From Verrucomicrobiota bacterium (GTDB taxonomy: Bacteria > Verrucomicrobiota > Verrucomicrobiia > JADLBR01): DNA of 64,000 nt. The stretch is taken from positions 1 through 64,000 of the forward strand of contig JAKQKQ010000246.1 of NCBI GenBank assembly GCA_029560585.1. The letters run 5' to 3'. Shown piece by piece: positions 6,241 to 46,128 of this stretch. Made by a program: the position numbers and the translations under genes. Numbering within the stretch: position 1 is the first letter of the stretch; every line of letters begins with the position of its first letter. The notes under the pieces were generated by a model. That model was given only the letters and a program-made list of their open reading frames with translations. It was not told the origin of the DNA and searched no databases.

Positions 6241-6262
6241 GATCGCGGCGCGATGTCAATCA

Positions 6263-6978: not shown

Positions 6979-7024
6979 AAAGGAACTCGGCTGTCAAAGA
7001 ATGAGCAATCCCAACAACCGATAA

Positions 7025-7040
7025 CCGCAATATATTGTGG
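7025..7040. promoter_or_regulatory. Near-perfect palindrome in head/tail gap
   Basis: CCGCAATA/TATTGTGG, two 8-base arms with one mismatch and no spacer, lies in an AT-rich pocket between the leftward tail genes and the rightward DUF2188 gene. It could be an operator for a moron-specific regulator. Five T residues follow on the + strand but no + strand gene ends here, so a terminator is unlikely. Confidence 0.3.
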
Positions 7041-7049
7041 TTTTTCAGT

Positions 7050-7078
7050 TTGACTATGCAACCCAATGTGGTTAATTG
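7050..7078 (+). promoter_or_regulatory. Possible rightward promoter for the DUF2188 moron
   Basis: TTGACT, 17 bases, TAATTG. The -35 box is good and the -10 weak. It is about 180 bases upstream of the DUF2188 start with no other rightward gene between. The region 6979-7256 is visibly more AT-rich than the surrounding phage genes, as is usual for moron flanks. Confidence 0.3.
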
Positions 7079-7123
7079 CTCTACTGCTCGATTCCGAGCA
7101 TTTTCGGGACTGGGCAAGAAAAA

Positions 7124-7147
7124 GGCTGGGACCGGGTGGTCCCAGCC
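7124..7147 (-). terminator. Rho-independent terminator, leftward
   Basis: GGCTGGGACC and GGTCCCAGCC form a perfect 10-bp stem around a 4-base loop. Read leftwards, the stem is followed at once by TTTTTCTT, so it should stop transcription coming from the head genes. There is no T-run on the rightward side. It lies inside the late operon, between head and tail genes. Confidence 0.75.
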
Positions 7148-7256
7148 GCAAGAACAACGGCAACCGACCGGGGAACGGTCCATTCCCGCTGTCTCGTCAA
7201 GTTAGACAGCTGTCGAGTAGCAGGAACACCGTCACTCGGTCAACTGGAGAATAGCG

Positions 7257-7481
7257 ATGGACAAATACCATCTGACCAAGAAAGAAAATGAGTGGAAGCT
7301 CACAAGGGAGGGTGCCGATCGCGCCGCCTTGAAGGCCGACACGAAGGAAGAGGCTCTTCGACAGAGCGTAGAGTTCATGAATCAGCATGGAGGATCGATG
7401 AAGGTCCACACGGAGGATGGGCAGTTCCAAGAGGAACGGACCTATCCCGGAAGTGCAGATCCTTATCCGCCCAAAGGCTGA
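7257..7481 (+). CDS. DUF2188 family protein (moron)
   Basis: 74 aa, begins MDKYHLTKKENEWKLTREGA. It matches the DUF2188 pattern: a strand with Trp, basic residues, TKEEALRQSVEFM helix, then a strand with VHTEDGQFQEERTYP and a Pro-rich end. Function of the family is unknown. GGAG sits 8 bases before the ATG. It is rightward between leftward head and tail genes and its base composition is more AT-rich, which marks it as a recently acquired moron with its own expression signals. Confidence 0.8.
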   Translation: MDKYHLTKKENEWKLTREGADRAALKADTKEEALRQSVEFMNQHGGSMKVHTEDGQFQEERTYPGSADPYPPKG

Positions 7482-10396: not shown

Positions 10397-10457
10397 GACC
10401 GGAATCCGCTGTCAAAGCACGATCCGGACGTGCGAGAATGGCCCACACGGTCAAGAC

Positions 10458-11366
10458 ATGACACTGCGTGACGAACTAATCCGCACCGCCCTCGAGTGGC
10501 AGCGCATCTACGGCAATGCCCCCTCGATCACGGGAGCATTAGGGGAGTACGACGCCGCAATGCTGGTGGGGTGTTCGGAGGAGGCGTACCGCAAGCAGAT
10601 GGCGCTCCGCTCTGTTGTTGCACCGGGCCACGACTTCGAGCACGACGGCAAACGCTATCAGGTGAGGGCTAACCGGCCGAGTGGGCGACCCGGCTCCCCG
10701 GTCACGCTCGTTAACAAGCCCAAGAAACTCGATTGGGATTTCTTTGTCTGGGTCCACTACTACGAGGACTTCACCCTGCGCGAAGCGTGGCTTTGGCCGA
10801 CGAGTGATTTCGTCGCGGCCTTTTCTCACAAAAACCGCCTATCTCCAGAAGACATGCGGCGTGGGAAGCGCCTTTTCGAAGCACCCGGTCCAACGAGTTC
10901 CTTCGTAAAGATCGCTGAGGAGCGCCCCGTTTTACGTCGTGTCCTGATGCCACTGCCGAAATTTCTTGGCCTCAAGCGTTATCCGGGTTTATGCACACAC
11001 CCTGATGCAGTGGACCAGTACTGGGTTCACTCACGAGGCGGCAAACGCTTCATCACGAGCGGGCAGCCGCCGGATGGGTTTCGATGGTTCGGCTTATACC
11101 TCGGCGGCAACAACGAGTATATTTTTCTGATGTGGTCAGTGGGCGGTCGCCGTTTCTGGTTCTACTGCTGCTATGCCCAAGTCCTCTCGGAAGACGGAAA
11201 TCTCTGGGGCCCCACCCTGGACACCCTCGACGAGGCGCTCCGGCGCTGGGATCGGGAAAATGGTGACGTCGTCTTCAGTAGTCCGTGGGGCTGGCTCGAC
11301 ACTCAGAGTCTGAAGTTCGATCAGGACGATCTTTTTCCAGGAACGGCCGAAGTCTGGGACAGCTGA
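10458..11366 (+). CDS. Conserved-looking accessory protein of unknown function (moron, 302 aa)
   Basis: The start at 10458 (MTLRDELIRTALEWQRIYG) is chosen because upstream in-frame codons lie over the protease gene on the other strand. The N-terminal 120 residues (APSITGALGEYDAAMLVG, RYQVRANRPSGRPGS, WDFFVWVHYYEDF, EAWLW) read as a compact alpha/beta domain of a type I recall in uncharacterised accessory proteins near restriction or defence genes. The C-terminal 170 residues are rich in aromatic residues and have several cysteines. The gene opposes the phage operon, and its last 46 bases overlap the portal gene's 3' end antiparallel. A defence or superinfection role is possible but unproven. 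Confidence 0.7.
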   Translation: MTLRDELIRTALEWQRIYGNAPSITGALGEYDAAMLVGCSEEAYRKQMALRSVVAPGHDFEHDGKRYQVRANRPSGRPGSPVTLVNKPKKLDWDFFVWVHYYEDFTLREAWLWPTSDFVAAFSHKNRLSPEDMRRGKRLFEAPGPTSSFVKIAEERPVLRRVLMPLPKFLGLKRYPGLCTHPDAVDQYWVHSRGGKRFITSGQPPDGFRWFGLYLGGNNEYIFLMWSVGGRRFWFYCCYAQVLSEDGNLWGPTLDTLDEALRRWDRENGDVVFSSPWGWLDTQSLKFDQDDLFPGTAEVWDS

Positions 11367-12832
11367 TCCGCATCTGGGACGACCGGTGCCGACTTTGCCG
11401 CACCACTTGCGGGTCGATACAGCATCTCCACCGGCACCTCCCATCGTTCCGCCGTTTCTAGGATCATCTTCGCATCGCGGGCACGGCGTTCTAACTCCTC
11501 GCCAAACTCCGCGCCGAGTTCCGCAAAGTGGTCCGATAGTGTTTTGAGCCCCATCTCCACGTCAGCTCGGTTCTGCTGCGCTTCACGCCCGGCATCCACC
11601 GAGACCCTTTTCGGACACGTACACGCGATTTTGTGCCAACCGGGAACATTCGGCAGCAATCCCCTCTCAATGGCATCCCCGATCACGTAGGCCCAGACGG
11701 GTGTGAGGAACCGCCCGATGAGGACCATCTGTCGGAACGAGAAACGCCGGTCTGCCTTGGCGACGACGAGCCGCACGCCGGCACCGCCAATGCGAGAGGA
11801 ATCGGCAGCGAATTCAAACGGAAGCACGCCAAGGGCCGAGTCGCGGCGAAGATGTTCCAGAAAACCGGTAAAGGTTGGGCTGGGGCGTCCCGATTGGAAG
11901 CTGTCGAGTTCCTCTCCCGGCTTGAGCGCGACGAGCTTGCCGCCGACGATCTTTTGAAGGGATACAGGATCGCTTGAGCCGATTTCGGCGGCCCCGATCT
12001 GGAAATCCCCGGTGTCCTCGTCGGTCAGGTCCCTCGGGCTCTTGAGCACGCGGGCGATATCGCAGTTGTCCTTGACGGCGTGCTTTTCCAGGGCGAGCAG
12101 CTCCATCTCGTCCAAGACGTTGTTGATCGAATGCTGGATGACCGGGGCCGCCCGCACCGCGCTGGCGCTCTCGGGCTCGAAGACGTGCAGCACCGAGGCT
12201 GCCGGCACATCGATGCCCTCGCCGTCGTCCTCGAGGATGCGGTAGAATTGCGGTCTCCCCGCAGCGTCCAACCCGATCCCGTCCACGGTGCCCTCGCGGT
12301 CGCCCTCCCCGACCCGGTGGGCCTCGATCAACTGGATGACCGGTTCCCCGACCGCGTCGCGGGTCTTGAGGACGAAGTATTCGCCATCGATATCGACCCC
12401 TCGGCAGACGATGGACTGGCATTCCTCGAAGCTGAAGCGGCCCGTCACCTCGCATCGCGCCGACCACGACTTGAAATACGCCTCGGCCTGGCGGTTCCAC
12501 TCGGGGTCCGGGGACTGGGCCTGCGGGCGGATGCCATCCCCCGTGGAATAGATGGCCATGTCCCCGACCAGCTCGCGCACGAAGCCGGAATTCTTGGAGA
12601 GGTATCGGGAGCGACGCACCAGCTCGGTGCGGACCGAAGGCGCGAGATCCCGCTTGGCGTCGCCAGGGGCCGCGCCGGGGACACGGCCACGCGCCTGGGA
12701 TTGATTGGCGCCCTCGTATGGGGATCCGTAGCCGCCGAACGCCCACCTCAATGCGCCGGCCATGAAACGCGAGAACCGCCCGGTCTGCGGGTGGCCGTTC
12801 ATTGCAGCAATGATCCGGTTGCGCCGAGTCAT
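11321..12832 (-). CDS. Phage portal protein, lambda family
   Basis: 503 aa from the ATG at 12832, which overlaps the gpW-like stop as ATGA (a further in-frame upstream ATG is rejected). Features of lambda gpB-type portals: RTELVRRSRYLSKNSGFVRE near the start, then DIDGEYFVLKTRD, an acidic loop, RRDSALGVLPFEFA and RIGGAGVRLVVAKADRRF. It forms the dodecameric ring for DNA entry. The C-terminal 15 codons overlap the opposing moron gene. Confidence 0.9.
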   Translation of the reverse strand: MTRRNRIIAAMNGHPQTGRFSRFMAGALRWAFGGYGSPYEGANQSQARGRVPGAAPGDAKRDLAPSVRTELVRRSRYLSKNSGFVRELVGDMAIYSTGDGIRPQAQSPDPEWNRQAEAYFKSWSARCEVTGRFSFEECQSIVCRGVDIDGEYFVLKTRDAVGEPVIQLIEAHRVGEGDREGTVDGIGLDAAGRPQFYRILEDDGEGIDVPAASVLHVFEPESASAVRAAPVIQHSINNVLDEMELLALEKHAVKDNCDIARVLKSPRDLTDEDTGDFQIGAAEIGSSDPVSLQKIVGGKLVALKPGEELDSFQSGRPSPTFTGFLEHLRRDSALGVLPFEFAADSSRIGGAGVRLVVAKADRRFSFRQMVLIGRFLTPVWAYVIGDAIERGLLPNVPGWHKIACTCPKRVSVDAGREAQQNRADVEMGLKTLSDHFAELGAEFGEELERRARDAKMILETAERWEVPVEMLYRPASGAAKSAPVVPDADQLSQTSAVPGKRSS

Positions 12833-13296: not shown

Positions 13297-14379
13297 ATGC
13301 CCGACGAGCTTTCGAACCTCAAGTTGGAACGCCTCATCGTTCACGAAGCCTTTCTCAGTTCGGATCTCGAAGCCGGGCGAACCCCGCAGCAGAGCGACGC
13401 CTTCGTGACCCTCGATCCGAAGGGCGAGGCGCTTCTCGCCAAACGACTCGTCGATGCCCTGAGCTCCGATAGCCACAGCATAGAGATGCAGGTCGAAAAC
13501 GACGCAGAAGATTCCACGTTTGCCGTCGCCACTCGCCTGTTAGACCTCCCCAATCCCGAATTCATCGCGAGCACGAAGGACATCGCCGGTCGGCTCATTC
13601 GGGCTCAAGCTGCCGGCACAATCAAACCTGGCATCTGCATTGTCCTCCAGGGCACAACCGGACCGAATTCCAGCCCCTCGCGGTTCTTGGCGATACTGAA
13701 AGCCGAAGCGGATGCTGGATTCATCAAGGAAGTCTCCGATCATGCGGTGACCCTCAAGTACATCAACGAAATGGTCCTCGGCGCCCAACAGCGCCTCTAC
13801 AAGATCGGCTGCTTCATCGACGGGTCCCGACCATCAGCACCTGTCGCGGACGGAGCCGCGCGCGACCCCGACGATTTCACTGTCCTGATCTACGACCACC
13901 AGATGACGGCGACCGGCGACAATCCAGCGGCGCGCTATTTCTACTCCACATTCCTTGGCTGCAAGATCGCGGTAACATCCTCCAGGTTGACCAAGGGATT
14001 CTACGACGTGACCTCGGATTATATCGCGCGCGCGAATTTCTCCCCGCAACAACGCGTAGAAGTACAAAATCACCTGACCTCCTACCTGAAGTCCAACGAA
14101 CCGCGGATCGAGCCGAGGGTTTTTGCCGACCGCTATCTCCCAAGTCCGATGCGGGCTGCCTACCTCGATGCGCTATGGAAGTCCGCCTTCCCGCGGCGGC
14201 CCGTCCAAAAGGACACGGCACTCATCAGTGGGCGCTTGCGCATCCGCCGCATGCAGTTTTCATCCAACGTGCGTATCGTCGCTCCTTCCGATAGTTTTGC
14301 GGCGACCGTCAAAGTCGCTGGAGCGCGCGACGGATGGACGGAAGTCAAGATCAAGGGTGACATCACGCAGCAGCAGTGA
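13297..14379 (+). CDS. NdpA-like nucleoid-associated protein (NA37 family)
   Basis: 360 aa. The sequence follows the 37-kDa nucleoid-associated protein pattern: an N-terminal LERLIVHEAFLSS strand-helix, then a central FLAILKAEADAGFIKE and a long C-terminal region with DDFTVLIYDHQM, ARYFYSTFLGC and SDYIARANFSPQQRVEV. Family members bind nucleoid DNA; their exact role is unclear. It is the first gene of a two-gene rightward unit with a strong SD (AGGAAGGAG). Its stop overlaps the next start (GTGA), so the two proteins are likely made in a fixed ratio. Low-level homology of the C-terminal part was not checked. Confidence 0.75.
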   Translation: MPDELSNLKLERLIVHEAFLSSDLEAGRTPQQSDAFVTLDPKGEALLAKRLVDALSSDSHSIEMQVENDAEDSTFAVATRLLDLPNPEFIASTKDIAGRLIRAQAAGTIKPGICIVLQGTTGPNSSPSRFLAILKAEADAGFIKEVSDHAVTLKYINEMVLGAQQRLYKIGCFIDGSRPSAPVADGAARDPDDFTVLIYDHQMTATGDNPAARYFYSTFLGCKIAVTSSRLTKGFYDVTSDYIARANFSPQQRVEVQNHLTSYLKSNEPRIEPRVFADRYLPSPMRAAYLDALWKSAFPRRPVQKDTALISGRLRIRRMQFSSNVRIVAPSDSFAATVKVAGARDGWTEVKIKGDITQQQ

Positions 14380-15371
14380 ACGAGGAGGATCTCAGGGCAA
14401 AGTACGAGCAACAGCGCCCTTTCCTTCAGGCGTGGGGTGAAGCCGTTGCGCACGAGATCCTGTCCCGTCTGGTCAAGGAGATCGGACCGGACCGGTCCCT
14501 CGACGAGTTTCTCAAGATACCACCGAAACCTCGAATCAAGACGACGCGGTCCTTCCTCGCCAAGGCGGTCAGCGCGGGAAACCGATACGCCTGCCCGTTG
14601 GATGAAATCACCGACAAGGTAGGGGTGCGGTTTGTGGTTCTCCTGCGGACGGAAATTGGTATTGTCGCCCAGATCGTCGAGCGGTGCGAGCGTTGGCAAG
14701 CCGAGAAGAGCCGCGATTTTGACGCCGAGCGCTGCGAGCGCCCACATCATTTCGATTACCAATCAGTGCACTACATTGTCCGCAGCCTTAGGCCCGAAAC
14801 GATGGACGGAGTTGAGATTCCGACGGGAACGCCCTGCGAAGTTCAAATACGGACGTTGCTCCAACACGCCTATGCCGAGCTTGCCCATGATACGACGTAC
14901 AAGCCATCTCTCGCCGTGGATCACGTTGTCAGACGCGAGATCGCCAAGAGCGCAGCACTCGTTGAAGCTACCGACGATATTTTCGTCGGTGTGAAAGGAC
15001 GGATCGAATCGGTTCATCAGGAATTGCGCCGCGTCCACTCCGCCCTGATGGAAGTGTACGAGGCCAGAGTTGGCCCAGTGACGGACAGATCCCCGAGGCT
15101 GACCTATTGCTTGCTTGATCCGTATCGCGATCATCTGGCCGAAATGACCCCGGCGACACTGGCTCAGTTCCTTGACCAGCACGATTTCGTTCCAGATCGT
15201 ATCCGCCAACGTGCCTCGCTCTCCGTCCTCTACAGCGATCCTTGTGTTATTGCTCTGTACTTTTTTGTCCAGAACCACCCGGACTTGTTGCCTGAGCGTT
15301 GGCCCGTCGATCGCACGCACCTGGAGATGATTTACTGCGACCTCGGCATTTCGACTGAGGGTCGCCTGTAG
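14376..15371 (+). CDS. RelA/SpoT-type nucleotidyltransferase, alarmone synthetase-like
   Basis: 331 aa, GTG start overlapping the NdpA stop. The synthetase motifs are all visible: basic KPRIKTTRSF (51-60), D80 in DEITDKVGVRFVVLL, YQSVHY (128-133), EVQIRT (155-160), and HDTTYK (171-176). These are the nucleotide-binding and catalytic signatures of small alarmone synthetases and of toxSAS toxins, which pyrophosphorylate nucleotides or tRNA. There is no HD hydrolase domain. Residues about 200-331 form an extra C-terminal domain without recognised family. Context suggests a toxin or effector under control of the NdpA-like partner. A purely regulatory role cannot be excluded. Confidence 0.8.
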   Translation: MNEEDLRAKYEQQRPFLQAWGEAVAHEILSRLVKEIGPDRSLDEFLKIPPKPRIKTTRSFLAKAVSAGNRYACPLDEITDKVGVRFVVLLRTEIGIVAQIVERCERWQAEKSRDFDAERCERPHHFDYQSVHYIVRSLRPETMDGVEIPTGTPCEVQIRTLLQHAYAELAHDTTYKPSLAVDHVVRREIAKSAALVEATDDIFVGVKGRIESVHQELRRVHSALMEVYEARVGPVTDRSPRLTYCLLDPYRDHLAEMTPATLAQFLDQHDFVPDRIRQRASLSVLYSDPCVIALYFFVQNHPDLLPERWPVDRTHLEMIYCDLGISTEGRL

Positions 15372-15404: not shown

Positions 15405-17297
15405 TCACCCAATCTCGGCATTCCGTTTGCTGTCCTCTGTCCCAGGTGCCTCCGGGTCCGCCATCGCATCCCTCCCGACCAGCTTGAGCATCACCGCCGC
15501 AACGCACTGCATGGCCTCGGCGTCCCATAGGTGCTGATCGCGGTTGCCGATCTGCTCCCAGACCGGTTTGTTGTTCTTCTTCACCCGGCGCTCGCCATCC
15601 ATCTGGCGCGCGTATTCCTCGCCCACGTCCTCGGGGACCTCCCACGTCAGTCCTTGCCCAGGGTCTTGATTCCTCCGCAGCCGCGCGAGGATATCTTTGC
15701 AGCTCAGGTTCGACCAGCGGTGGAGGAAGCATGATTGGCCCCGGCCCAGGACGATCTTCTGCCGCGGCGAGTAGAAACGATGCGCGGGCGCAGTCCCGCC
15801 GCGCCGGCGGTGGACGAATGTCGGGCGGCCGTCGCCGACCAGCGCGATCCAACCGCGCGCTGCGCACTGTCGGTAGACCTCGTAGCTGGCATAGCCGGCA
15901 TCGACGAACACGAGGCCCCGGTGGACGCCGAAGCGTTCCTGCAACGTCTCGACATCCTCCCAGGAGGGCAGCCTTTCCCACCAGAGAAGCCGCGAGGAAC
16001 CATTCGCGGCCCACGACCGCACGACCGCCCACATGTGATCCATCTGCACGTCCACGGTGAGGAAACGGAGCGGGATGGTGGCGACGCCCTCGGGGAAGGG
16101 CGGGCCGAGGATGCGGCCGTGCGCGTCGATGCCGCCCTCATCGGCCCATGGCTCGCCCATCCGATAGCCGCCCCTGCGGATCTCGACGCGGAAGTCCTCG
16201 CTATCCTCGCCCCAAGTCTGCGCGAGGCGCTTCATGCGGAATTCTTTCAATAGCGAGGCGTCGCCCCTGCGGTACGCGGCCACGGCCTTGTGCCATTCCT
16301 CGACCAGGTCGCGCCAGTCCATGTGGGCCATGGCGTTCCATCGAAAACCGACGCGGTCTTCGGGAGCATCGGGGTTACGCGGCGTGAATCGCCACTCCCG
16401 GAGTAGATCTTTTTGGAGTTCCTTCGAGTACGGCATCCGCTCGGCGCAGTGCGGGCACTCGTAGGCGACGGTCTTGCGCATATCGCGCCATTTCCAGGTG
16501 CCATCGCCATGGCGCGTGCGCTCGCTGTCCTCCCACACGATGCCACCGGGACGGTTGGGGTCCTTATCCCACTGGAGGGCGAACCAGCCCCGGCAGCACG
16601 GGCAGCGGACTTCGAGTTCCCGTTGGTCGCTGTCCTCCCAGGCCAAGTCGGCCTCGTCTCCGTCCTCGGCGCCGGTGGAGAGGTTCAGGATCACCCGCGA
16701 GGTGCGGAAGGAGGTGGTTCGCTTGCGGAGCTGCTCGAGGTGGCCCTGCGGGTAGAGCCAGACCTCGTCGTTGACCTGGATCGCGACCGAGAGGCTCTGG
16801 AGGTTGCTGGGCGTGGCCGCGCCCTGGACCACGAGAAACATGTGGTTGAAGAGGATCGTGGTCGTCCGCTTCTTGTGGCGATTGGCGGGGAAGTGGTAGC
16901 GCAGCGGCGCGCATCGCTCGAGCATCGGCATGAGCCGGAACTCGGCGAAGTCCTTGGCCTTGTCGTCGGTCTGGGCGTTCCACTGCGCGGGGCCGGGCCG
17001 ATGCTTGATCGTCCATGCGAGGAACACCTGGGCGATGAGGCTTTTCACGCTCTGGACCGAAGCCTGGATCGTCACCTCGATCCCGGTGCGGTTGCGCAGC
17101 ACATCGAGCGGCTCCTTTGCGTAGGGGTGCAGGTTGATGTCGAAGGGGCCGGGCTGGGACATCTCCTCGCCCACGGTGATGTGCTCCGCGGCCCACTCCC
17201 ATATGGGCCGGTCGTCGACCACCGGGACGCAATCGAAGAACGCGTGAAGGAGCGGGTCGGGTCCGCGCCGTTTAGCGGTAGGCGATGGAGATGTCAT
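15405..17297 (-). CDS. Terminase large subunit, lambda GpA family
   Basis: 630 aa from the ATG at 17297 (MTSPSPTAKRRGPDPLLHAF), chosen because it overlaps the small subunit gene end. The N-terminal ATPase part has VTIQASVQSVKSLIAQVFLA with the degenerate Walker A of the family and later zinc-finger-like CPCC and CPHC pairs. The C-terminal nuclease has LTVDVQMDHMWAVV and FVDAGY, with acidic metal-binding residues. It cuts and packages DNA with the small subunit. It is followed convergently by the RelA/SpoT gene with 33 bases between. Confidence 0.93.
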   Translation of the reverse strand: MTSPSPTAKRRGPDPLLHAFFDCVPVVDDRPIWEWAAEHITVGEEMSQPGPFDINLHPYAKEPLDVLRNRTGIEVTIQASVQSVKSLIAQVFLAWTIKHRPGPAQWNAQTDDKAKDFAEFRLMPMLERCAPLRYHFPANRHKKRTTTILFNHMFLVVQGAATPSNLQSLSVAIQVNDEVWLYPQGHLEQLRKRTTSFRTSRVILNLSTGAEDGDEADLAWEDSDQRELEVRCPCCRGWFALQWDKDPNRPGGIVWEDSERTRHGDGTWKWRDMRKTVAYECPHCAERMPYSKELQKDLLREWRFTPRNPDAPEDRVGFRWNAMAHMDWRDLVEEWHKAVAAYRRGDASLLKEFRMKRLAQTWGEDSEDFRVEIRRGGYRMGEPWADEGGIDAHGRILGPPFPEGVATIPLRFLTVDVQMDHMWAVVRSWAANGSSRLLWWERLPSWEDVETLQERFGVHRGLVFVDAGYASYEVYRQCAARGWIALVGDGRPTFVHRRRGGTAPAHRFYSPRQKIVLGRGQSCFLHRWSNLSCKDILARLRRNQDPGQGLTWEVPEDVGEEYARQMDGERRVKKNNKPVWEQIGNRDQHLWDAEAMQCVAAVMLKLVGRDAMADPEAPGTEDSKRNAEIG

Positions 17298-17883
17298 GGA
17301 GTTCCCCGAACGCGAGCCGGAGCGCGAGTTCCGCCCGCGCCCGCTCCTCATCGCTCTTGGCGGCATCGACCAGGTGCGCCCGGAAGATCCGCGCCGCCTC
17401 GGTCCACGCGAAGGAGACCTTCTCGACCACCTCGGCGCGCGTGACGTATTCCCGCCGGCGGATGGCGAGCTCCAATTCCGCCCGCTCGTTGCCGATCTCG
17501 TAGCGGCGCACGATCTCCGCCTCCCGGCGCGGCAGCTGTTCCTTCGCGCCGTTGCTCTCGCCCAGGCCCTTCTCCTGGATGAAGCGGCGCCACGCGGCGG
17601 CGTCCTGCTGGTTGTCGGGCCGGGCCTTTGGCGCGCCGGGGAGCTTGGCCCAGGTCCGGAAGGATTCGCGCGAGTAGGGTAACACCTCGGCCAGACCCCG
17701 GAAACCCCTGACCCAGTGCGGGGCTTCGGCGATGCCGTCCCTGCGCCGCCGCTCGATGAGCGCCCGCTCGCGCGCGGTGAGGGTCTTGCCCGCCTGGAGC
17801 CGCCTTACGATGTTGGCCAGGTCGGCGGAGAGCAGGCTCTCGGCCTCCTCGGGCCCGAGGTCCTCGATCGTGCGGGGTTTCAC
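17272..17883 (-). CDS. Terminase small subunit, probable
   Basis: 203 aa from a GTG at 17883 (VKPRTIEDLGPEEAESLLSA), chosen over a far-upstream ATG because it shares GTGA with the preceding stop. The protein has a helical N-terminus, a region AEVLPYSRESFRTWAKLPGAP that resembles a DNA-binding helix-turn-helix hinge, and a charged C-terminus that overlaps the large subunit gene. Its place immediately upstream of terminase large fits a DNA recognition subunit; the primary sequence match is modest. Confidence 0.7.
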   Translation of the reverse strand: MKPRTIEDLGPEEAESLLSADLANIVRRLQAGKTLTARERALIERRRRDGIAEAPHWVRGFRGLAEVLPYSRESFRTWAKLPGAPKARPDNQQDAAAWRRFIQEKGLGESNGAKEQLPRREAEIVRRYEIGNERAELELAIRRREYVTRAEVVEKVSFAWTEAARIFRAHLVDAAKSDEERARAELALRLAFGELHDISIAYR

Positions 17884-18599
17884 TTCACCGCGATCCAGCC
17901 GGCGAAGTTGAGCAGCCTCCAGAAGCAGTCGACGGAGCGGAACCCGCAGCCCCGGAGCATGTCCTCGTTCCACGCGGCCGTCACCGGAACGAGCACGCCC
18001 TCCAGCGAGAAGCGCTTCCTGTCGATCTCTTCGCGCGAGTAGCCGTTGCGCTCCTTGAGCGCCAGGTACTCCTCGACGAAGAGGCGGTTGGTCCCGGGAC
18101 CGGAGCCAAGGACCTTCTCGACCAGGATGAGGGCGCCGCCCGGCTCCAGCGCGTCGAAGGCGCGGCCCACGATGTCGAGGCGGTACTCGATCGGGGTGAA
18201 TTGGAGGGTGAGGACCGACATCACCACCGACGCGCGGCATTCGGGGAAGGCGCCGCGCAGATCCAGTTCCACGATCTCCACGACCCCGAATCGGATGTGG
18301 TCGGCGAAGCGCCCGCGAGCGGCGGCGAGCATGGGCTCTGAAACTTCAACGCCGATGAAGCGGTTGCGGCCACCGAGCTTCTCAACCAACGGTGCCAGCG
18401 CCTCGCCGCGCGAGCAGCCCAGGTCCACGATCGCCGTGTCGGGCCGCGCGTGGCGCAGGGCCAGCGCCGCGACCGTCTCGCGCATGACGGCGTAGCCCGG
18501 GATGCTGCGGGCGAGCATGTCATCGAAACACGCGGTCACTTTCTCATCGAAGGCCCAGCGTCCGCCGGGCAGATGGCCTAGACTGGTAGCTTCTTCCAT
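17880..18599 (-). CDS. CmoA-like SAM-dependent enzyme (carboxy-SAM synthase-like)
   Basis: 239 aa from the ATG at 18599. It aligns by eye with CmoA along its length: WAFDEKVTACFDDMLARSIP, DLGCSRG (59-65), TLQFTPIEYR, LEPGGALILVEK, KERNGYSREEIDRKR and the ending NFAGWIAVK. E. coli CmoA makes carboxy-SAM from SAM and prephenate; a basic residue there (R199 in my recollection) contacts the carboxylate, and R196 here falls at that place. CmoB, its usual partner, is not in the window. It is part of the packaging-linked ParB cassette. An ordinary methyltransferase role remains possible. Confidence 0.75.
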   Translation of the reverse strand: MEEATSLGHLPGGRWAFDEKVTACFDDMLARSIPGYAVMRETVAALALRHARPDTAIVDLGCSRGEALAPLVEKLGGRNRFIGVEVSEPMLAAARGRFADHIRFGVVEIVELDLRGAFPECRASVVMSVLTLQFTPIEYRLDIVGRAFDALEPGGALILVEKVLGSGPGTNRLFVEEYLALKERNGYSREEIDRKRFSLEGVLVPVTAAWNEDMLRGCGFRSVDCFWRLLNFAGWIAVK

Positions 18600-18997
18600 G
18601 GTCGTACTCCCACCGGCATCGCCCGGATGCCGTGGCGCGCGTACATCGCGCGCGTGTTCGGGTTGCTCTCGATGGCGAGCATCTCCTCGGGCCGGAAGCG
18701 CGGGAATAGATGCGCGCGCAGGACCAGTTCCTTCCACGGGGGCGGATTGAGGTTCCGGTCGTTGAAGTACGCCTCCTGCGGCTCCCAGCCGGTCAGGACC
18801 CGGATGCGCTCGATGGTGGCCTCTTGCCAGCGCGCGGGCCGGGCGGTCACCAGGACCACGTGATGCGGGCGCACGAGCCCCACCAGCCACAGCCGGTAGG
18901 TCTCCTCCCCGAGCCGGCGCGCCATCGGCGGCGGGCTGATTCCCCGCTGGGGAGAATTGGCCACCAGCGTGTAGTTCAGGTCCAGTAGGATGATCAC
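18578..18997 (-). CDS. HAD-like hydrolase fold protein (139 aa)
   Basis: Begins MIILLDLNYTLVANSPQRG, with a DxN/D-like motif I, then LVTAR (motif II), WKELVL (motif III lysine) and AIESNPNT (motif IV position, with weakened acidic pair). This is the outline of small HAD phosphatases such as polynucleotide 3'-phosphatases. The second catalytic acid of motif I is Asn, which may reduce or change phosphatase activity. The start shares ATGA with the ParB-fusion stop, and the CmoA-like gene overlaps its end. Confidence 0.6.
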   Translation of the reverse strand: MIILLDLNYTLVANSPQRGISPPPMARRLGEETYRLWLVGLVRPHHVVLVTARPARWQEATIERIRVLTGWEPQEAYFNDRNLNPPPWKELVLRAHLFPRFRPEEMLAIESNPNTRAMYARHGIRAMPVGVRPWKKLPV

Positions 18998-20508
18998 AGC
19001 GTTACCCCCAATCGTTTTGAGAAGGCCTCCCGCGCCTCTGCCGCAAGCCCCATGCGGCTTCCATCGGGGTAGGGGAGGTCGAATTCGAAATCGATCGCCT
19101 CGCGGAGGCGGGCGAGGTCCACCGGCAGCGGCCCGGAGCAGATCGCGGTGACGTTGTTGCTCATCTCCGTGACCTTGACCGATCGGAAATGTGGCGAGAA
19201 GAGGTCAAAGAATTCGCGCTCGGTGTGGTACTTCTGGACCTTGGGCCTGTCCTGGAAGTCACCGATGCGGATGCCGGGCTCGTAATCCAGGCGGAAGCAG
19301 ATGTTGCCGGCGTTGGACTCGTTCATGAACGCCTTGCCCCGGACCTGCCGCCAGCCGGTCTCGGTGACGCTCGATGCGCAGGCGTAGAGCCGGGTGAACG
19401 GACGGCACAGTGCGGCGCAGATCGCGACGATCTTCTGCCGGTCGGAGAGGAACGGCACCGAGTTGAGAACGCTGCTGATGAAGATCGACGTCCACTCGAC
19501 GCCCGAGGCGACCGCCCCGAGGAACCCGCGGGCCATCTCGATGCTCTCGCGGGCGCTGATCTCGTTTCCCGCGAGACGGTACGGCTCAAACGGCGTGCAC
19601 GCGATCCCCGCCTCGCGCAGGAGCAGCGTCTCGGTGAGATGGCCCGCCCCGAAATCCAGGACACAGCCGCCGTGCTCCTTGATCCACCGCGCCCTGTCGG
19701 CGGGCCGGAGGATGTCGAAGGTCCCGCAGGGCGCGGAACCGTGAACGGCGAAGGTGAAGCCGTTGCCCAGGCCCGCCCTCACGCGGCGGGCGCGCCGGAA
19801 CGAGTTGAACCGGAGCAGGTCCGCGTAGCGGGTGTGGATGTCGAAATCCATCGAGAGCAGGTTCATCATCGCGCGGGCGAACTCGGCCTCATCGTCCGTC
19901 ACGTAGACCACGGGCGCGGTCTCCTCGCCCCGCTCGGCGAGCATCTCCAGCCGCCCGATGCCGTTGACGACCGTGCCGTCGGCGCGGCAGACAACCGGCA
20001 TCTCGATCCCATGGCGGTAAAGCGTCCGGGCGAGATTGCGCGCGTAGCGGATCCATTTCCCGCTGTTGATCCGGCAGAGGTCCTCGACCTTCACCCTGGC
20101 CGGCGCGAGGCAGCGGAGGAATTCCCCGGACGACGGGGACTTGTCGGGGATCGCCTCCGCCAATGCCTTGAGGTCGATCCCATCCAGTTCGCGGGTCGCG
20201 GCGCCGGGCGTCGAGTTGATGTCGAAATCGTTGGTCGCCCGGTTGAAGACGATGTTCAGCGCCTTGCGCCGTTCCAGGGGCATGGCACCAACCCGGAACA
20301 CCGGCACGCGGGCCGCGCCCATGCGGCTCGCCACGAGGTGGCGCTGGTGGCCGGAGAGGATCTCCCCGTCGGCATCGGCGTAGATCGGGGCGAGGAAACC
20401 GAGCTTGCGCAACGAAAGCTCGATAAGATCCAGTCGCCTGGGATCGACATGACGGGGATTATAAGAACTCGCTGTAAGGGCGGTTATTGGCTCGGCGGTC
20501 ACCTTCAT
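18994..20508 (-). CDS. ParB-N domain fused to methyltransferase-like domain
   Basis: 504 aa, ATG at 20508 overlapping the previous stop. Residues 1-110 are a ParB-N/sulfiredoxin-like domain (DADGEILSGHQRHLVASRMG carries the basic box). A second ParB-like stretch follows (ADGTVVNGIGRLEML, about 190-205). Residues about 290-430 contain a Rossmann-type methyltransferase-like core, with LDFGAGHLTET as the SAM-binding loop and an acidic FEPY. No target-recognition or NPPY/DPPY motif is apparent. The fusion, with the ParB and CmoA-like neighbours, suggests DNA recognition with base modification. Catalytic competence is not shown. Confidence 0.65.
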   Translation of the reverse strand: MKVTAEPITALTASSYNPRHVDPRRLDLIELSLRKLGFLAPIYADADGEILSGHQRHLVASRMGAARVPVFRVGAMPLERRKALNIVFNRATNDFDINSTPGAATRELDGIDLKALAEAIPDKSPSSGEFLRCLAPARVKVEDLCRINSGKWIRYARNLARTLYRHGIEMPVVCRADGTVVNGIGRLEMLAERGEETAPVVYVTDDEAEFARAMMNLLSMDFDIHTRYADLLRFNSFRRARRVRAGLGNGFTFAVHGSAPCGTFDILRPADRARWIKEHGGCVLDFGAGHLTETLLLREAGIACTPFEPYRLAGNEISARESIEMARGFLGAVASGVEWTSIFISSVLNSVPFLSDRQKIVAICAALCRPFTRLYACASSVTETGWRQVRGKAFMNESNAGNICFRLDYEPGIRIGDFQDRPKVQKYHTEREFFDLFSPHFRSVKVTEMSNNVTAICSGPLPVDLARLREAIDFEFDLPYPDGSRMGLAAEAREAFSKRLGVTL

Positions 20509-21149
20509 AGCCCGAGCCTTCCGCGGATGGCGGTCAAGACCGCGTCCTTGTCGAAACCGGCCTCCTGGCGAATCAGGTCGCTCCATGTGCCAAACTCCGC
20601 CTGCGTGACCCGGAAGCGGTACATCCCGACCGCGATGGTGACATCGCCCTTCTCCAGTTCGCCCTCGCCGTCCCCCTCCTCGGGTTCCTCGATCTTCGGC
20701 TGGAGCAGCGCGTCGAGGTCCGCCGGATCGAAGCCGGCCAGGAGCGTGTCGAAATTCTCGTTGCGCCAGCCCGCCGCGATCCGCTCGAGCTCGTTGAGGT
20801 CGGTCGAGGCGAGTTCCGCCAGCCGGTTGTCGGCCACCAGGATCGCCAGCTCGTCGTCGTCACTGGCGATCTCCTGAAAATCCACCGGCACGATGCGCAG
20901 CCCGAGATGCGCGGCGGCCATGAGCCGGCCGTGGCCGGATACGATGAGCCCGCTGCGCGATGAGACGGTGATGGGGTGGCGCCAGCCGAAGTGCCGGATG
21001 TTCTTGGCGAGCAACTCGATCTGTCGGGCCGGGTGGGTGTTGGGGTTGCGCGGGTTGGGTTGGAGTTCCCCGACCGGCACGAGCTTGTCGAACGCGCACC
21101 AGACCTCCACCCCGTCGGCGAGGGCCTTGGCTTTTGGCGCGCGGGTCAT
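20505..21149 (-). CDS. ParB-N domain protein
   Basis: 214 aa. The N-terminal 110 residues match a ParB-N domain: LQPNPRNPNTHPARQIELLA, then ITVSSRSGLIVSGHGRLMAA with the basic nucleotide-binding box. The C-terminal half is acidic (PKIEEPEEGDGEGELEKGD) and ends in a helix. Phages often carry such proteins beside terminase genes or DNA methyltransferases. CTPase, nuclease and DNA-binding roles are all possible for this fold. Confidence 0.75.
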   Translation of the reverse strand: MTRAPKAKALADGVEVWCAFDKLVPVGELQPNPRNPNTHPARQIELLAKNIRHFGWRHPITVSSRSGLIVSGHGRLMAAAHLGLRIVPVDFQEIASDDDELAILVADNRLAELASTDLNELERIAAGWRNENFDTLLAGFDPADLDALLQPKIEEPEEGDGEGELEKGDVTIAVGMYRFRVTQAEFGTWSDLIRQEAGFDKDAVLTAIRGRLGL

Positions 21150-21167: not shown

Positions 21168-21815
21168 TCAAAACCCCCGCAGGTCCACGGCGCTCTCCAG
21201 GTCGGCCAGCGCCGCCCGGACGCAGCCGCCACTGCCCACCGCGATCCGCGCCGCCGTGGCCGGATCGATGTCCCACCGTGAGGACAGAAGCCCGGCGATC
21301 TCTTCGGTGTCCGGGGGCAGGAGCTTGATCGCCTGGAATCGGGTCTGGAACCGCTCGGTGAGCAGATCGAGTTGCAGGTTGCTGGTCCCGATCATTGCGC
21401 GTCCGGGCGGGAGCCCGTCGAGGTAGGAGAGCAGCAGGTCCTGGGCGTCGCGGGTACAGCGGTCCAGTTCGTTGATGATCCGCACCGACCAGGGAGAGAA
21501 CAGGTTCCCCAGTGCGAGCGATCCCATCCAGCCCTTGACCACCTCGATGGTGACGAGCTTGCCGTTGACCTCGTCCACCGCCAGCGGGCTCCCCCCCAGT
21601 TCGGCGGCCACCATGCCGGCCACCGTCGTCTTGCCCACGCCGGGCGGGCCGTAGAGCAGCACCTTCATCGTGCCCCGCTCCCCGGCCCGCAGACGTCGGG
21701 CCTTGGCGAGCAGCGCCTCCGCCGCCCGGTGGGCGGGGCCGATCAGATCATCGACCGACCCCGGCCGCCAGTTGAGCGGCGAGACTTCCCTAATCGCCGC
21801 TTCCGCCCTCACCAT
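21168..21815 (-). CDS. AAA+ ATPase, clamp-loader/RuvB-like
   Basis: 215 aa from the ATG at 21815 (7-base overlap with the upstream stop). Walker A GPPGVGKT at 56-63, Walker B-like VRIINELD at 111-118, sensor 1 GTSN at 143-146, and an arginine-rich ERFQTRF at 154-160. The short length suggests an AAA+ core plus a small lid. The Walker B has Asn-Glu instead of Asp-Glu. It may load or remodel the ParB-modification complex, or be a packaging or replication factor. Confidence 0.75.
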   Translation of the reverse strand: MVRAEAAIREVSPLNWRPGSVDDLIGPAHRAAEALLAKARRLRAGERGTMKVLLYGPPGVGKTTVAGMVAAELGGSPLAVDEVNGKLVTIEVVKGWMGSLALGNLFSPWSVRIINELDRCTRDAQDLLLSYLDGLPPGRAMIGTSNLQLDLLTERFQTRFQAIKLLPPDTEEIAGLLSSRWDIDPATAARIAVGSGGCVRAALADLESAVDLRGF

Positions 21816-22258
21816 TCCTCCCTCCGGATGCGGGCCTTGATCGTGTTCACCGAAACGCAGAAGCGCTCCGCGGTCTTCTTCGGGCTGCGGCATTCCCTGT
21901 AGAAATTCCGGATCTCCGACCAGCGGGCCTCGCCATTGACGGGTACCTCGGGCTGTTCGAATGCGTCGAACCGCACGACCTTTTCCTCGGGCGACGGCTG
22001 GGGTGCCGGCGGCGCAGTTGCAGCCGGCGTTGCGGTCGCCTGTGCCGCCACCGGCTCGCCCCTCATGATCGCCTCCACGATCTCCCGGATGATCGGCACC
22101 GGGATCTCGGTGATCGTGAACACCACCCCCGTTAGGCTCTGCCGGCCGAGCCGCTCCTTGAGGAACTTCATCGCCGCACCCCTCGTGCGGCCCTGGAACT
22201 TGCCCTCGAAGAGCGTGGCGCCCTTCTCCTCGCAGACGATGTAGTAGAGCTTGTCCAT
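21809..22258 (-). CDS. Putative DNA-binding protein with C-terminal helix-turn-helix (149 aa)
   Basis: The N-terminal 80 residues are alpha/beta (MDKLYYIVCEEKGATLFEGK). An Ala/Pro-rich linker follows (about 75-95). The C-terminus IRNFYRECRSPKKTAERFCV with SVNTIKARIRREEW reads as a helix-turn-helix. It may regulate the late operon or mark a start site for packaging. No known family was assigned. Confidence 0.55.
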   Translation of the reverse strand: MDKLYYIVCEEKGATLFEGKFQGRTRGAAMKFLKERLGRQSLTGVVFTITEIPVPIIREIVEAIMRGEPVAAQATATPAATAPPAPQPSPEEKVVRFDAFEQPEVPVNGEARWSEIRNFYRECRSPKKTAERFCVSVNTIKARIRREEW

Positions 22259-24016: not shown

Positions 24017-24109
24017 TAGTTCGATTAGTACGAATAAGATTGCCCGATTTAGCTCCTGCTGCTTAGCCTGTCCGTTGTGGACGGGATGGTTTTGGTGGGT
24101 ATCCGCTCG

Positions 24110-27100
24110 ATGCGCCCGACAAGACGCATAATTACGTTCGCCGGGTCCATTTTGCTTGCCATAACGACTTTTGCTCCCCCTTCATCGGGTTTGGATCTGA
24201 ACAGCAACGGCGTCAGCGACGTCTGGGCCTGGCATTACGGCGTGACCAACATGGCGCCCTCCGATGATCTGGACTTCGACGAGCAAGACAATCTTTTGGA
24301 ATCCATCGCGGGGACCGACCCATGGGATAGGTCCTCGCGCTTTGAAACGATCGCACAGGGTGGGCCACCGGATAGCGAGGGCAGCCAGACCAATGTGGTA
24401 GTGAGTTGGTGGGGAGTGATGGGGAAACGTTACGAGGTCTGGGCCTCGCACGATCTGCTCAATTGGGAATTTTTCGACGGACCATTCCTTGGCACGAACG
24501 CGGCGCTGTCGGTCTCGGACGCCATCCCTTACCCGCCCGAGGGCGAGGGCATGATGTCCCTGCAGGAGCCATCCGGGGACAAATCCATCATCTCCCTGGG
24601 CCCGCAGCCCTCGTGGTATCCGCACGGCGCCACGACCAACTCCACCGGCGATGCGGCGACCTATAACTTCCAGTTCGTCTGCGCGTCGGTCTTCGACAAC
24701 GGGCTGTGCTCGATGACGCTGTTCGACGGGGACCGCCAGTACCGGATCCTGAGCAACCTGCCCATCGGGCGCATCCCCGGGACACAGCAGTGGCTGGACC
24801 GCAGGTCTGGCTGGGGCGCCTTCTTCCTCGAATATGGCGACTCCTGGGACAGCTACGTCCGCTACTACGAGATCGCCGACGCCGACAAGCTTGCGGCGGA
24901 ACTGCTGGGATCCAAGACGGCGGCCTATGTTTCCGAACCCTTCGATCGCTGGCCGTATTACTCTGAGCCCAAGGGCTGGGTGCTGGAGTTCTTCGAGTGG
25001 ATGCACAATTACTACGAGGCCAACCGGGATTATTTTGCGGCGGGTCAGGCCGCACTCGAAGGGGGCACCTACGATTTGTTCCTCATGCAGACCGCGCCCG
25101 CGCCCGACGCCGTCGAAGGCGGCGGGACGATGACGCTCAACGAGGGGGGTGGCACCAGCGATGAAAGCCGCCGTTTCTATCGTGTCCACACCATCGCCAG
25201 TTTGGATGAGGACGGCGATGGGTTGGACGCCTACGAGGAGCATCTTCTGGGAACGTCTGACTCGACAGCCGATGGGGATGGCGATGGGGTGCCTGACGGG
25301 GAGGAGTTCATTTACGGGCTCCATCCCACCAGTCCACAGGATCTCGACGGCGACTGGATGCCCGACGATTGGGAGATGTATCATTTCGGTACCCTGGAGC
25401 GCACCAATCCCCCGGCGGTGTTCTGGAACAGCCCGGCCGACGGCTCGACCATCGACCCAGGGGCCACGGTGTACCTTCAGGCTTCGGCGACGGAGAACGC
25501 ATCGGTCACGCTGGTGAAGTTCTTCGCCGACGGGACCAACGTGGGCGAGGATGCCGCCTCGCCCTACATCGTCGCCTGGTCCAATTCGGTCGCGGGCGCC
25601 CACTCGCTCCAGGCGCAGGCGGTCTTCGGGCGCGGCGCCACGGTCACATCGACCCCGGTGACCGTGTCGGTCGCCCCGCCCGACGCGGACGGCGACGGCA
25701 TGGCCGACGCATGGGAGATCGAATGGCTGGGCGGCACCAACGCCGCCCCAACGGCGGACGCCGACGGCGACGGGCTGAACAACCTCCAGGAGTACGGGGA
25801 CGGCACGCTGCCAAACGATTTCTACAACGGGCAGCGGCCGCTGCTCTCCATCGTTTCCGGCGACCGGCAGGCGGCCAACACGAACACCTTCCTGCCGGAG
25901 CCACTGGTGGTGCGCGTGCGCGATCAGGTCGGCATAGGACTTTCCAATGCCCCCGTGACGTTCACGATCTGGCCGGCGGGCGGGCTCTTTTCCACCAGCA
26001 CCAACGGGGCGCCGCTCTTGGCGACGAACGAGGTGCGCACGGCCCCGGACGGGCTGGCGCAGGTGTGGCTCAAGCTGCCTCCCGGCAGCGGCGGCCTCCA
26101 GTGGATCACCGCCTCGGCCTTCGACAGCAACGTTTTCTTGGAGGCTTTCGCCAAGTCTGTCACCAACAGACCCACCGTGACCGTCGAGGCCACCGACCCG
26201 GTGTCGGCCGAGCCGGGTTCCAACATCGGGGTTTTCACCATCAGCCACAACGGAAATACCTTCTCGCCCCTGTCGGTCGTCTTCGGCATGTCCGGCACCG
26301 CGACCAACGGCACCGACTACGCGACGATCGCCTCGCCCGCGGTGATCCCGGCCGGAACCAACTGGGTGCGCGTGGAGGTGCGTCCGACCGATGATTCCAG
26401 CGTCGAACCCACCGAGACGGCCATCCTGACGGTCAGCAACAGCGCGGCCTACGTCGTCGGTTCGCCCTCGGTGGCGACCAACTCGATCCTGGACAACGAG
26501 AAGGGCGGGACCACCGGCATTGATGGCGGCGAGAATTTCTCCGCCGTGCTGCTCTACGATGGCACCGTCTGGACCTTCGGGGCGGATGGATCGGGCCAAC
26601 TCGGCAACGGGACGGGCGCGGGCTCGACCAACGTGCCGGCCCAGGTGCCCGGACTTTCGAACGTCGTCCAGATCGCCTGCGGCCAGTATCATTGCCTGGC
26701 CCTCCAGATCGGGGGCCGGATCAAGAGCTGGGGCGATGGCGGCTCTGGGCGGCTCGGCAATAACGGTGACGCTAGCCAGCAGAGTCCGGTCTTTGTCGTG
26801 GACACCCGGCTGACCAATGCGATCGCCGTATCCGCCGGGCAGGAACACAGCCTGGCGCTGGCCGCAAACGGAGCCGTCTGGGCATGGGGCAACAACGGGG
26901 AGGGGGAACTGGGGATCGGCCGCTTCTCGGGCTGGGAGGATACCCCGACCAATTCGAACAATGGCTTGTCCAGCACCCAGATCAGCGCCGGGCGCCGCAA
27001 CAGCTATGCCCTCAAGACCTCGGCTCTCTATGGCTGCGGCAACAACGAGAAGGGGCAGTTGACGGAGGGCGATCCCCAGTCGTCCTTCGCATCCGTCGAG

Positions 27101-28198
27101 ACCGGGATCGACGAGGCCGCCTCCGGCTACGAGTTCGTGGTCGCCCGCAAGGGCACAAACGTCTGGACCTGGGGCGAGAACCAGGACTATCAGCTTGGCA
27201 CCAATGCCCCCTCCTACCGCGCCAGCCCCGCAAAGGTCGGAGGGGTATCGAACATCGTCGCGGTGGCCGCGGGCGAGAAGCATGCGCTGGCCCTTCGATC
27301 GGACGGCACGGTATGGGCGTGGGGCAGTGGCGCCAACGGTCGGCTCGGCAACGGTGCGACCAGTAACCGCAGCACCCCGGTCCAGGCGAGCGCAGCCGGT
27401 TTTAGCAACGCCATCGCCATTGCCGCGGGCTACGAGCACAGCATGGCCATAACAGCCGATGGTTCCGTGTGGACTTGGGGCAGGAACAACAACGGCCAAC
27501 TCGGTCTTGGAACCAATGACCAGCAACGAACCGTTCCCACCCGCATCCCCGGCTTCAATGTGTTCGACCGGCTCCCAACCGTTTCGATCGCGTGGCCGAC
27601 CAACGCGGTGGCCACCGACCAGGCCGGCGACCTCGTGATTCAGGCGAATGCCACCGACTCAGACGGCACTGTCACAAAGGTCGAGTTCTTCCGCGACGGC
27701 GAAAAGATCGGCGAATCGGTGGCGGCCCCCTTCAACTTCAACTGGACCAACGCCGTCCTCGGACCCTGCGCGCTGACGGCGGTGGCGACCGACGACAAGG
27801 GTCTCTCCGCCACCTCCGCCCCGGTCGCGGTCACTGTCTATTCCGGCGGCGATTCGGATGGCGACGGATTGAGCGACTACGAGGAGGTCGTGGTCCACGG
27901 GACCAACCCCCTCGTGAAGGATTCGAATGGCGACGGCCTGCTCGACGGGGCGGCGGTCCTCGCGGGTTTCGATCCGAAAAGCGACGATCCCGACGGCGAT
28001 GGGGTGACCACGGCGGAGGAACTGGCCGCTGGAACCAACCCCTTCCGCGCCGACACCGACGGCGATGGTCATAACGACGGCGCCGACGCGTTCCCGCTGG
28101 ACCCGAGCCGCAATGAAGCGCTCACCGACGATCCCGGTGACGACACGCCACCGACCATCATCCTCGAGCGGCCCGCCGACGCGGAGCCGGTGCCCTGA
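24110..28198 (+). CDS. Secreted multidomain protein with RCC1, Calx-beta and TSP3 repeats
   Basis: 1362 aa. The start at 24110 gives MRPTRRIITFAGSILLAITT, a Sec signal peptide. Domains seen in order: an N-terminal region with an EF-hand-like DLNSNGVSDVW; further calcium-type DxDxDG repeats (about 365-430); Ig-like domains (about 440-525); a Calx-beta domain (about 687-797); RCC1-type propeller repeats (about 802-1150, recurring WTWG, GSGANGRLGNG); a second Ig-like domain; and thrombospondin type-3 repeats (about 1243-1343). The calcium-binding C-terminus and signal peptide predict a cell-surface or secreted protein. It precedes the RHS gene by 10 bases, so they form one operon. Ligand and substrate unknown. 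Confidence 0.8.
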   Translation: MRPTRRIITFAGSILLAITTFAPPSSGLDLNSNGVSDVWAWHYGVTNMAPSDDLDFDEQDNLLESIAGTDPWDRSSRFETIAQGGPPDSEGSQTNVVVSWWGVMGKRYEVWASHDLLNWEFFDGPFLGTNAALSVSDAIPYPPEGEGMMSLQEPSGDKSIISLGPQPSWYPHGATTNSTGDAATYNFQFVCASVFDNGLCSMTLFDGDRQYRILSNLPIGRIPGTQQWLDRRSGWGAFFLEYGDSWDSYVRYYEIADADKLAAELLGSKTAAYVSEPFDRWPYYSEPKGWVLEFFEWMHNYYEANRDYFAAGQAALEGGTYDLFLMQTAPAPDAVEGGGTMTLNEGGGTSDESRRFYRVHTIASLDEDGDGLDAYEEHLLGTSDSTADGDGDGVPDGEEFIYGLHPTSPQDLDGDWMPDDWEMYHFGTLERTNPPAVFWNSPADGSTIDPGATVYLQASATENASVTLVKFFADGTNVGEDAASPYIVAWSNSVAGAHSLQAQAVFGRGATVTSTPVTVSVAPPDADGDGMADAWEIEWLGGTNAAPTADADGDGLNNLQEYGDGTLPNDFYNGQRPLLSIVSGDRQAANTNTFLPEPLVVRVRDQVGIGLSNAPVTFTIWPAGGLFSTSTNGAPLLATNEVRTAPDGLAQVWLKLPPGSGGLQWITASAFDSNVFLEAFAKSVTNRPTVTVEATDPVSAEPGSNIGVFTISHNGNTFSPLSVVFGMSGTATNGTDYATIASPAVIPAGTNWVRVEVRPTDDSSVEPTETAILTVSNSAAYVVGSPSVATNSILDNEKGGTTGIDGGENFSAVLLYDGTVWTFGADGSGQLGNGTGAGSTNVPAQVPGLSNVVQIACGQYHCLALQIGGRIKSWGDGGSGRLGNNGDASQQSPVFVVDTRLTNAIAVSAGQEHSLALAANGAVWAWGNNGEGELGIGRFSGWEDTPTNSNNGLSSTQISAGRRNSYALKTSALYGCGNNEKGQLTEGDPQSSFASVETGIDEAASGYEFVVARKGTNVWTWGENQDYQLGTNAPSYRASPAKVGGVSNIVAVAAGEKHALALRSDGTVWAWGSGANGRLGNGATSNRSTPVQASAAGFSNAIAIAAGYEHSMAITADGSVWTWGRNNNGQLGLGTNDQQRTVPTRIPGFNVFDRLPTVSIAWPTNAVATDQAGDLVIQANATDSDGTVTKVEFFRDGEKIGESVAAPFNFNWTNAVLGPCALTAVATDDKGLSATSAPVAVTVYSGGDSDGDGLSDYEEVVVHGTNPLVKDSNGDGLLDGAAVLAGFDPKSDDPDGDGVTTAEELAAGTNPFRADTDGDGHNDGADAFPLDPSRNEALTDDPGDDTPPTIILERPADAEPVP

Positions 28199-28208
28199 TT
28201 TTCAGAAG

Positions 28209-42375: not shown

Positions 42376-42376
42376 G

Positions 42377-42574: not shown

Positions 42575-42585
42575 GGCTGCCTCCC

Positions 42586-42990: not shown

Positions 42991-43022
42991 TTTGATGTCT
43001 CCTCTGTTGTTGGTGGTTGGGT

Positions 43023-46106: not shown

Positions 46107-46128
46107 ACCGAGGAGCGCGACGGGCGGA

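Follow-up and report, generated by a model that had tools for sequence, protein, structure and literature searches.

We have analysed a 64,000-nucleotide stretch of DNA from a Verrucomicrobiota bacterium (assembly GCA_029560585.1, contig JAKQKQ010000246.1, positions 1 to 64,000), here called the window, and found that it carries on its minus strand a cassette of four overlapping genes (17880-21149) that runs straight into the terminase genes of a prophage. In order, the genes encode a ParB-N-like protein (20505-21149, 214 aa), a ParB-methyltransferase fusion that we refer to as ParB-MT (18994-20508, 504 aa), a HAD-fold protein (18578-18997, 139 aa) and a CmoA-like protein (17880-18599, 239 aa). 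The overlaps are 4 bp between ParB and ParB-MT, 4 bp between ParB-MT and HAD, 22 bp between HAD and CmoA, and 4 bp between CmoA and the gene for a probable small terminase subunit, TerS (17272-17883, minus strand), which is assigned from a weak match (phrog_57, E=0.0048) and from its conserved position before the gene for the large subunit, TerL, of the GpA type (15405-17366, minus strand; PF05876, E=1.6e-33; PF20454, E=2.4e-16; phrog_15, E=6.3e-67). An earlier reading of this DNA, made from its letters alone and referred to below as the original prediction, had placed the four genes here, tied by overlaps and adjoining terminase, and had called the CmoA-like protein phage-encoded; the placement is correct, and the same window holds tape measure and head protease genes (2126-4027, 9080-10396) as well as primase, helicase and integrase-like genes (38731-47430), which identify it as a prophage. 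The cassette may serve to modify phage DNA with the cofactor carboxy-S-adenosylmethionine (carboxy-SAM), and it is this possibility that we consider here.

The last gene of the cassette encodes a protein that aligns with CmoA along its length, as had been predicted. It matches TIGR00740 over residues 13-239 (E=1.8e-43; 149 bits, with the curated equivalog cut-off of 193 not reached) and phrog_4752 (E=8.5e-68), and its best matches in the PDB are the CmoA structures 1im8 (E=2.7e-33) and 4gek, also over residues 13-239. Arg199 of E. coli CmoA binds the carboxylate of carboxy-SAM (PMC3663124), and the original prediction had drawn attention to a KR pair at this place; K195-R196 of the window protein does align with K198-R199 of the E. 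coli enzyme. The window protein also keeps the equivalents of W18, F20, Y39, D62, G64, S66, D117 and E164, with D89 changed to Glu and N132 to Val. Among 116 CmoA proteins from ParB-MT loci and their relatives R199 is kept in 96, and the majority of ligand contacts are likewise kept; in sub-clades that include the proteins of Pseudomonas phage SM1, Aeromonas phage HJ05 and Gordonia phage Evaa the position is occupied by Glu, Ala, Thr or Asn. We first took the loss of R199 in these three phages to speak against carboxy-SAM synthesis, but SpCmoA of phage S-B43, a proven and fast carboxy-SAM synthase in vitro (PMC12783734), has Glu at the aligned position, and so the loss does not disprove such an activity. 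The KR pair is therefore present where it was said to be, although it is a weaker criterion than had been thought. From its residues the window CmoA looks catalytically intact, and its homology to characterized enzymes strongly suggests that it would synthesize carboxy-SAM. CmoB, which the original prediction had found lacking, was not detected in the window's genome, where searches gave only weak generic matches to PF08003, or in the phages tested, and the genome contains no CmoA beyond its prophage copies. The end of the window protein is nearly identical to a CmoA end from a Verrucomicrobiia assembly (100% over 57 residues), which makes it probable that the host belongs to this group.

ParB-MT belongs to a family that PHROG lists as of unknown function (phrog_5475, E=4.5e-108, residues 4-501 of 504). 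The fusion of ParB-N and methyltransferase-like parts is as predicted, except that two ParB-N-like units, not one, precede the class I methyltransferase domain, as judged from self-similarity in the HJ05 member and from the predicted structure (mean predicted local distance difference test score, pLDDT, 84.8). When the model was compared with known structures by Foldseek, the ParB units matched Noc and ParB and the remainder matched assorted small-molecule S-adenosylmethionine (SAM) methyltransferases; no DNA methyltransferase was among the top 50 matches, and a PDB search with the sequence gave no match. Motif I (DFGAG) and the acidic E308-P309 are invariant or nearly so, which makes it likely that ParB-MT binds a SAM-type cofactor. 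The basic residues R233, R238, R239, R357, K423 and K426 of ParB-MT are invariant. The canonical motifs of DNA methyltransferases, the PC of the C5 enzymes and (D/N/S)PP(Y/F/W), are absent from ParB-MT, as is any C5 or N6/N4 Pfam match, and SVLNSVPF, the sequence of the loop that follows strand 4, contains no more than a degenerate SxPF. Since the domain has neither of these motifs, the product of the cassette need not be 5-carboxymethylcytosine.

The two remaining proteins are smaller. The separate ParB protein is of the phrog_620/498 type (phrog_498, E=9e-37, ParB part only; phrog_620, E=2.1e-31) and has homologues in HJ05, SM1 and Evaa. The HAD-like protein was correctly recognized as such and can now be described more closely: it matches phrog_32036 (E=5.6e-30), and its AlphaFold model (pLDDT 96.2) has as best PDB match 5uj0, the 3'-phosphatase domain of T4 Pnkp (template modelling score 0.72), with which it shares the fold and the conserved Asp, Thr and Lys of the HAD core. 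The signature D, N, T, T, K, E is conserved across 105 relatives. The DxDxT acylphosphatase motif of T4 Pnkp, however, reads DxNxT in 103 of the 105, and because the second Asp is thus Asn in nearly all of them, phosphatase activity is uncertain: it may be weak or altered, or the protein may function in binding instead.

The arrangement recurs widely beside terminase genes, as the original prediction had anticipated. In IMG/VR, 80 loci were recovered with a ParB-MT alignment, and every one of them has a gene for a CmoA-like protein a few genes downstream; about nine of the CmoA matches are divergent (79-88 bits, against about 290). ParB, HAD, TerS and TerL are usually present too, in the order seen in the window. 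ParB, ParB-MT and CmoA also lie beside terminase in three unrelated GenBank phages, Evaa, SM1 and HJ05, whose terminases belong to families other than that of the window, and the cassette is found in assemblies of Leptolyngbya, Anaerolineae, Victivallales and Clostridium. Within the window's own phylum, 5 of 289 sampled genomes encode a full-length ParB-MT and one a distant relative. This recurrence excludes a chance arrangement. Nor are CmoA homologues found mostly apart from the ParB fusion: nearly all window-type relatives occur with it. The SM1 and HJ05 loci yielded no HAD match, and between CmoA and TerS the viral loci hold no conserved extra enzyme, only occasional non-conserved genes, one of them HNH-like by eye.

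A carboxy-SAM pathway acting on phage DNA is already known. In Synechococcus phage S-B43, CmoA makes carboxy-SAM, CmoX uses it to carboxymethylate cytosine at C5, giving 5-carboxymethylcytosine (5cxmC), and CmoY then ligates glycine to the product (Yang et al., Nat Commun, December 2025, PMC12783734). The window cassette resembles this system in that a phage-borne CmoA without CmoB lies beside putative DNA-modifying genes, and ParB-domain genes are common near the phage CmoA, CmoX and CmoY genes as well (PMC12783734). The window cassette is nevertheless not a member of the CmoA-CmoX-CmoY system, since CmoX and the amide ligase CmoY are absent and ParB-MT and a Pnkp-like HAD protein are present instead; what the two have in common is the logic of the cofactor. 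Searches for a C5-cytosine methyltransferase (PF00145) gave no match on the contig of the window, in the phages HJ05, SM1 and Evaa, or among 46 viral contigs. A CmoY-type ligase (PF00733) was likewise not found on the window contig, the four matches in the genome lying on other contigs. Conversely, Erwinia phage Y3 has CmoA and a C5-cytosine methyltransferase (PF00145) and no ParB-MT, and in a Gemmataceae prophage (locus L106, 1155-3334) a CmoA 61% identical to that of the window is overlapped, directly before terminase, by a CmoX-type C5-cytosine methyltransferase that bears the CmoX signature, SPPC together with Arg at the R350 position. Among the ParB-MT phages tested only HJ05 has a PF00733 protein, an Asn-synthase-like ligase that is weakly CmoY-like, and it also encodes a 3-deoxy-D-arabino-heptulosonate-7-phosphate (DAHP) synthase (PF00793, E=1.2e-49); the two genes lie at 6257-7420 and 10287-11504 of locus L005. 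DAHP synthase opens the pathway that leads to prephenate, and the two genes could possibly give the phage a boosted prephenate supply and a further modification step. A hydroxymethylated base, with thymidylate synthase as its sign, does not appear to be a general feature, that gene being present in HJ05 and absent in SM1 and Evaa.

The position of the cassette in Evaa can be compared with the same place in related phages. Evaa has its terminase in common with Mycobacterium phage Audrey (65%) and its capsid protein in common with Gordonia phage MossRose (75%). Between the genome start and terminase Evaa carries ParB, ParB-MT, HAD and CmoA; in this slot Audrey has ParB and genes resembling 3'-phosphoadenosine-5'-phosphosulfate (PAPS) reductase, MossRose has ParB and a predicted thymine-hypermodification set of the kind described for CaiB (PMC9302106), and Laurie has ParB and genes for dPreQ0, a modification measured in the DNA of Rosebush, a phage of the same genus (PMC6884629). 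In every case read, Evaa and its Mycobacterium and Gordonia relatives alike (loci L006 and L142-L145), a ParB-like gene leads the slot. What the cassettes of the Rosebushvirus, Sourvirus and Pipefishvirus types have in common with that of the window is a run of overlapping genes, headed by a ParB-like one, immediately before terminase; they differ in carrying dPreQ0, predicted thymine-hypermodification or PAPS-reductase-like genes. We note that the stretch from genome start to terminase in the Evaa group looks like a swappable slot for DNA modification.

These findings lead us to favour, with moderate confidence, a reading of the cassette as a phage DNA hypermodification set that runs on carboxy-SAM and in which ParB-MT occupies the place of CmoX. 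CmoA would convert SAM and prephenate to carboxy-SAM; ParB-MT would contact DNA with its two ParB-N-like domains, perhaps with the separate ParB protein as a helper, and would plausibly use its class I methyltransferase domain to move the carboxymethyl group onto an acceptor in DNA. The HAD protein might act in this pathway by trimming or holding a phosphorylated nucleic-acid group, and the place of these late genes beside terminase hints that modified, host-nuclease-resistant DNA would be what is packaged. Four independent lines agree in pointing to carboxymethylation of DNA, namely the lack of a C5-cytosine methyltransferase, the swap with CmoX in the Gemmataceae prophage, the Evaa slot, and the DAHP synthase and ligase of HJ05. 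Modification before packaging fits a CmoA that looks intact, is without CmoB, recurs beside terminases and sits in a modification slot.

Several observations weigh against this interpretation. In the predicted structure the methyltransferase domain of ParB-MT yields just generic methyltransferase fold matches, and a search for ParB-MT positions that change together with R199 of CmoA gave no clear candidate, so that no carboxylate-binding residue could be assigned. An N6/N4 methyltransferase occurs in 3 of 38 virus records and could be the true acceptor enzyme there; we rejected it as a general acceptor enzyme because it is found in just these three. The majority of the viral contigs are fragments, which makes absence counts in them lower-grade evidence. 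Lastly, a distant relative of ParB-MT, with a single ParB-N match by Pfam, follows a homologous terminase and ParB in an Akkermansia-like genome (G231; locus L157, 12751-14841), and neither CmoA nor HAD lies nearby. The wider ParB-MT family therefore does not need carboxy-SAM, and it is to the subfamily having two ParB units that the link to CmoA applies; the Akkermansia-like protein may represent an ancestral, plain methyltransferase form.

Such a relative also speaks for a reading in which ParB-MT is an ordinary SAM-dependent DNA methyltransferase and the CmoA-like protein serves mainly to drain or divert SAM and so to weaken SAM-dependent host defences, with no carboxymethylated DNA being made. 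Depletion of SAM by phage CmoA has been raised as a possibility (PMC12783734), and the variation of R199 among sub-clades could be read in the same way. The example of SpCmoA takes much of the force from that variation, however, the CmoA residues are conserved in most members, the window's included, and both the CmoX swap and the HJ05 genes point to transfer of a carboxymethyl group; we regard a SAM drain as unlikely. A role for the phage CmoA in wobble modification of tRNA (the cmo5U pathway), as in bacteria, is suggested by the name that PHROG gives its family, tRNA methyltransferase, and by its homology to E. coli CmoA, to which the window protein is 32% identical (BLAST) with Arg199 kept. 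This pathway uses CmoB, whereas the genes here have a phage setting with terminase and ParB; given that neither CmoB nor a host CmoA is present, we reject tRNA modification, which we think highly improbable.

It might also be that the cassette acts on packaging sites or DNA ends and not on the whole genome, with ParB binding the packaging site and, together with the Pnkp-like HAD protein and an AAA ATPase encoded next to the cassette, preparing it for terminase. The genes do run into TerS and TerL with overlaps, in a position kept across unrelated phages, the closest fold to HAD is that of an end-processing phosphatase, and ParB domains suggest site-specific loading. Yet the same slot in the relatives of Evaa holds modification genes, the dPreQ0 of Rosebush is genome-wide, HAD was not detected in two of the loci, as noted above, and scoring with a window-derived model alone revealed no AAA gene in the loci of Evaa, SM1 and HJ05. 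We consider such a local function quite improbable and favour the carboxymethylation of phage DNA.

The idea in the original prediction that carboxy-SAM serves to carboxymethylate phage DNA has thus fared well in part. The chemistry is sound in principle and the genomic context fits, but the idea is no longer new, phage CmoA, CmoX and CmoY having been published in December 2025 and this chemistry shown for another phage (PMC12783734). In a preliminary search Yang et al. found no N6-adenine or N4-cytosine carboxymethyltransferase beside phage CmoA, and ParB-MT is not described in the text that we read (PMC12783734). The new element here is the probable replacement of CmoX by ParB-MT, and the link to CmoA allows a specific function to be predicted for a family so far annotated only in general terms (PHROG 5475, in Evaa 'ParB-N-terminal-like domain methyltransferase'). 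We would give an even chance to the broader proposal that ParB-MT represents a second, independently evolved family of carboxy-SAM-dependent DNA-modifying enzymes, one that is not of the C5 type, places the carboxymethyl group at a different position in DNA, has spread widely among prophages in Verrucomicrobia and further phyla, and changes places with CmoX next to terminase.

Until late 2025 carboxymethyl DNA bases were termed unnatural. If our interpretation is correct, there are in nature at least two unrelated routes to carboxymethylated DNA, the second relying on a ParB-guided enzyme from a family without an assigned function, and the DNA of the culturable phages SM1, Evaa and HJ05 becomes a named target for mass spectrometry. 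It would also offer a possible new tool enzyme for tagging DNA with carboxyl groups, and would hint at the function of ParB-N domains, which stand at the head of several phage modification cassettes that differ in their chemistry.

The AAA ATPase gene, which is RuvB- or clamp-loader-like (21168-21893, minus strand; PF00004, E=9.9e-10; phrog_168 clamp loader, E=1.3e-14), is the conserved upstream neighbour of the cassette in window-type phages. Elsewhere in the same bacterial genome the cassette is present again in full on contig 61, with 85% identity over 3.3 kb, and in part on contig 151, while contig 17 retains a remnant. The last (locus L014, 10345-14464) is a decayed relative of the prophage that has kept AAA and HAD and lost ParB, ParB-MT and CmoA, and just after HAD it carries a 1166-aa open reading frame that by eye resembles a methyltransferase of the restriction-modification type.

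We also note two regions of the window that lie on the strand opposite to the phage genes. Adjoining TerL, a nucleoid-associated NA37-like gene overlaps a gene with a RelA/SpoT domain (13297-15371, plus strand), and this pair is possibly prophage cargo, for example a defence or toxin pair. Further along, very large open reading frames (24077-33284, plus strand), the first with RCC1 repeats and Ig-like and TSP3 domains, stand between phage-like minus-strand blocks and may be either host-type surface protein cargo or a chimeric junction.

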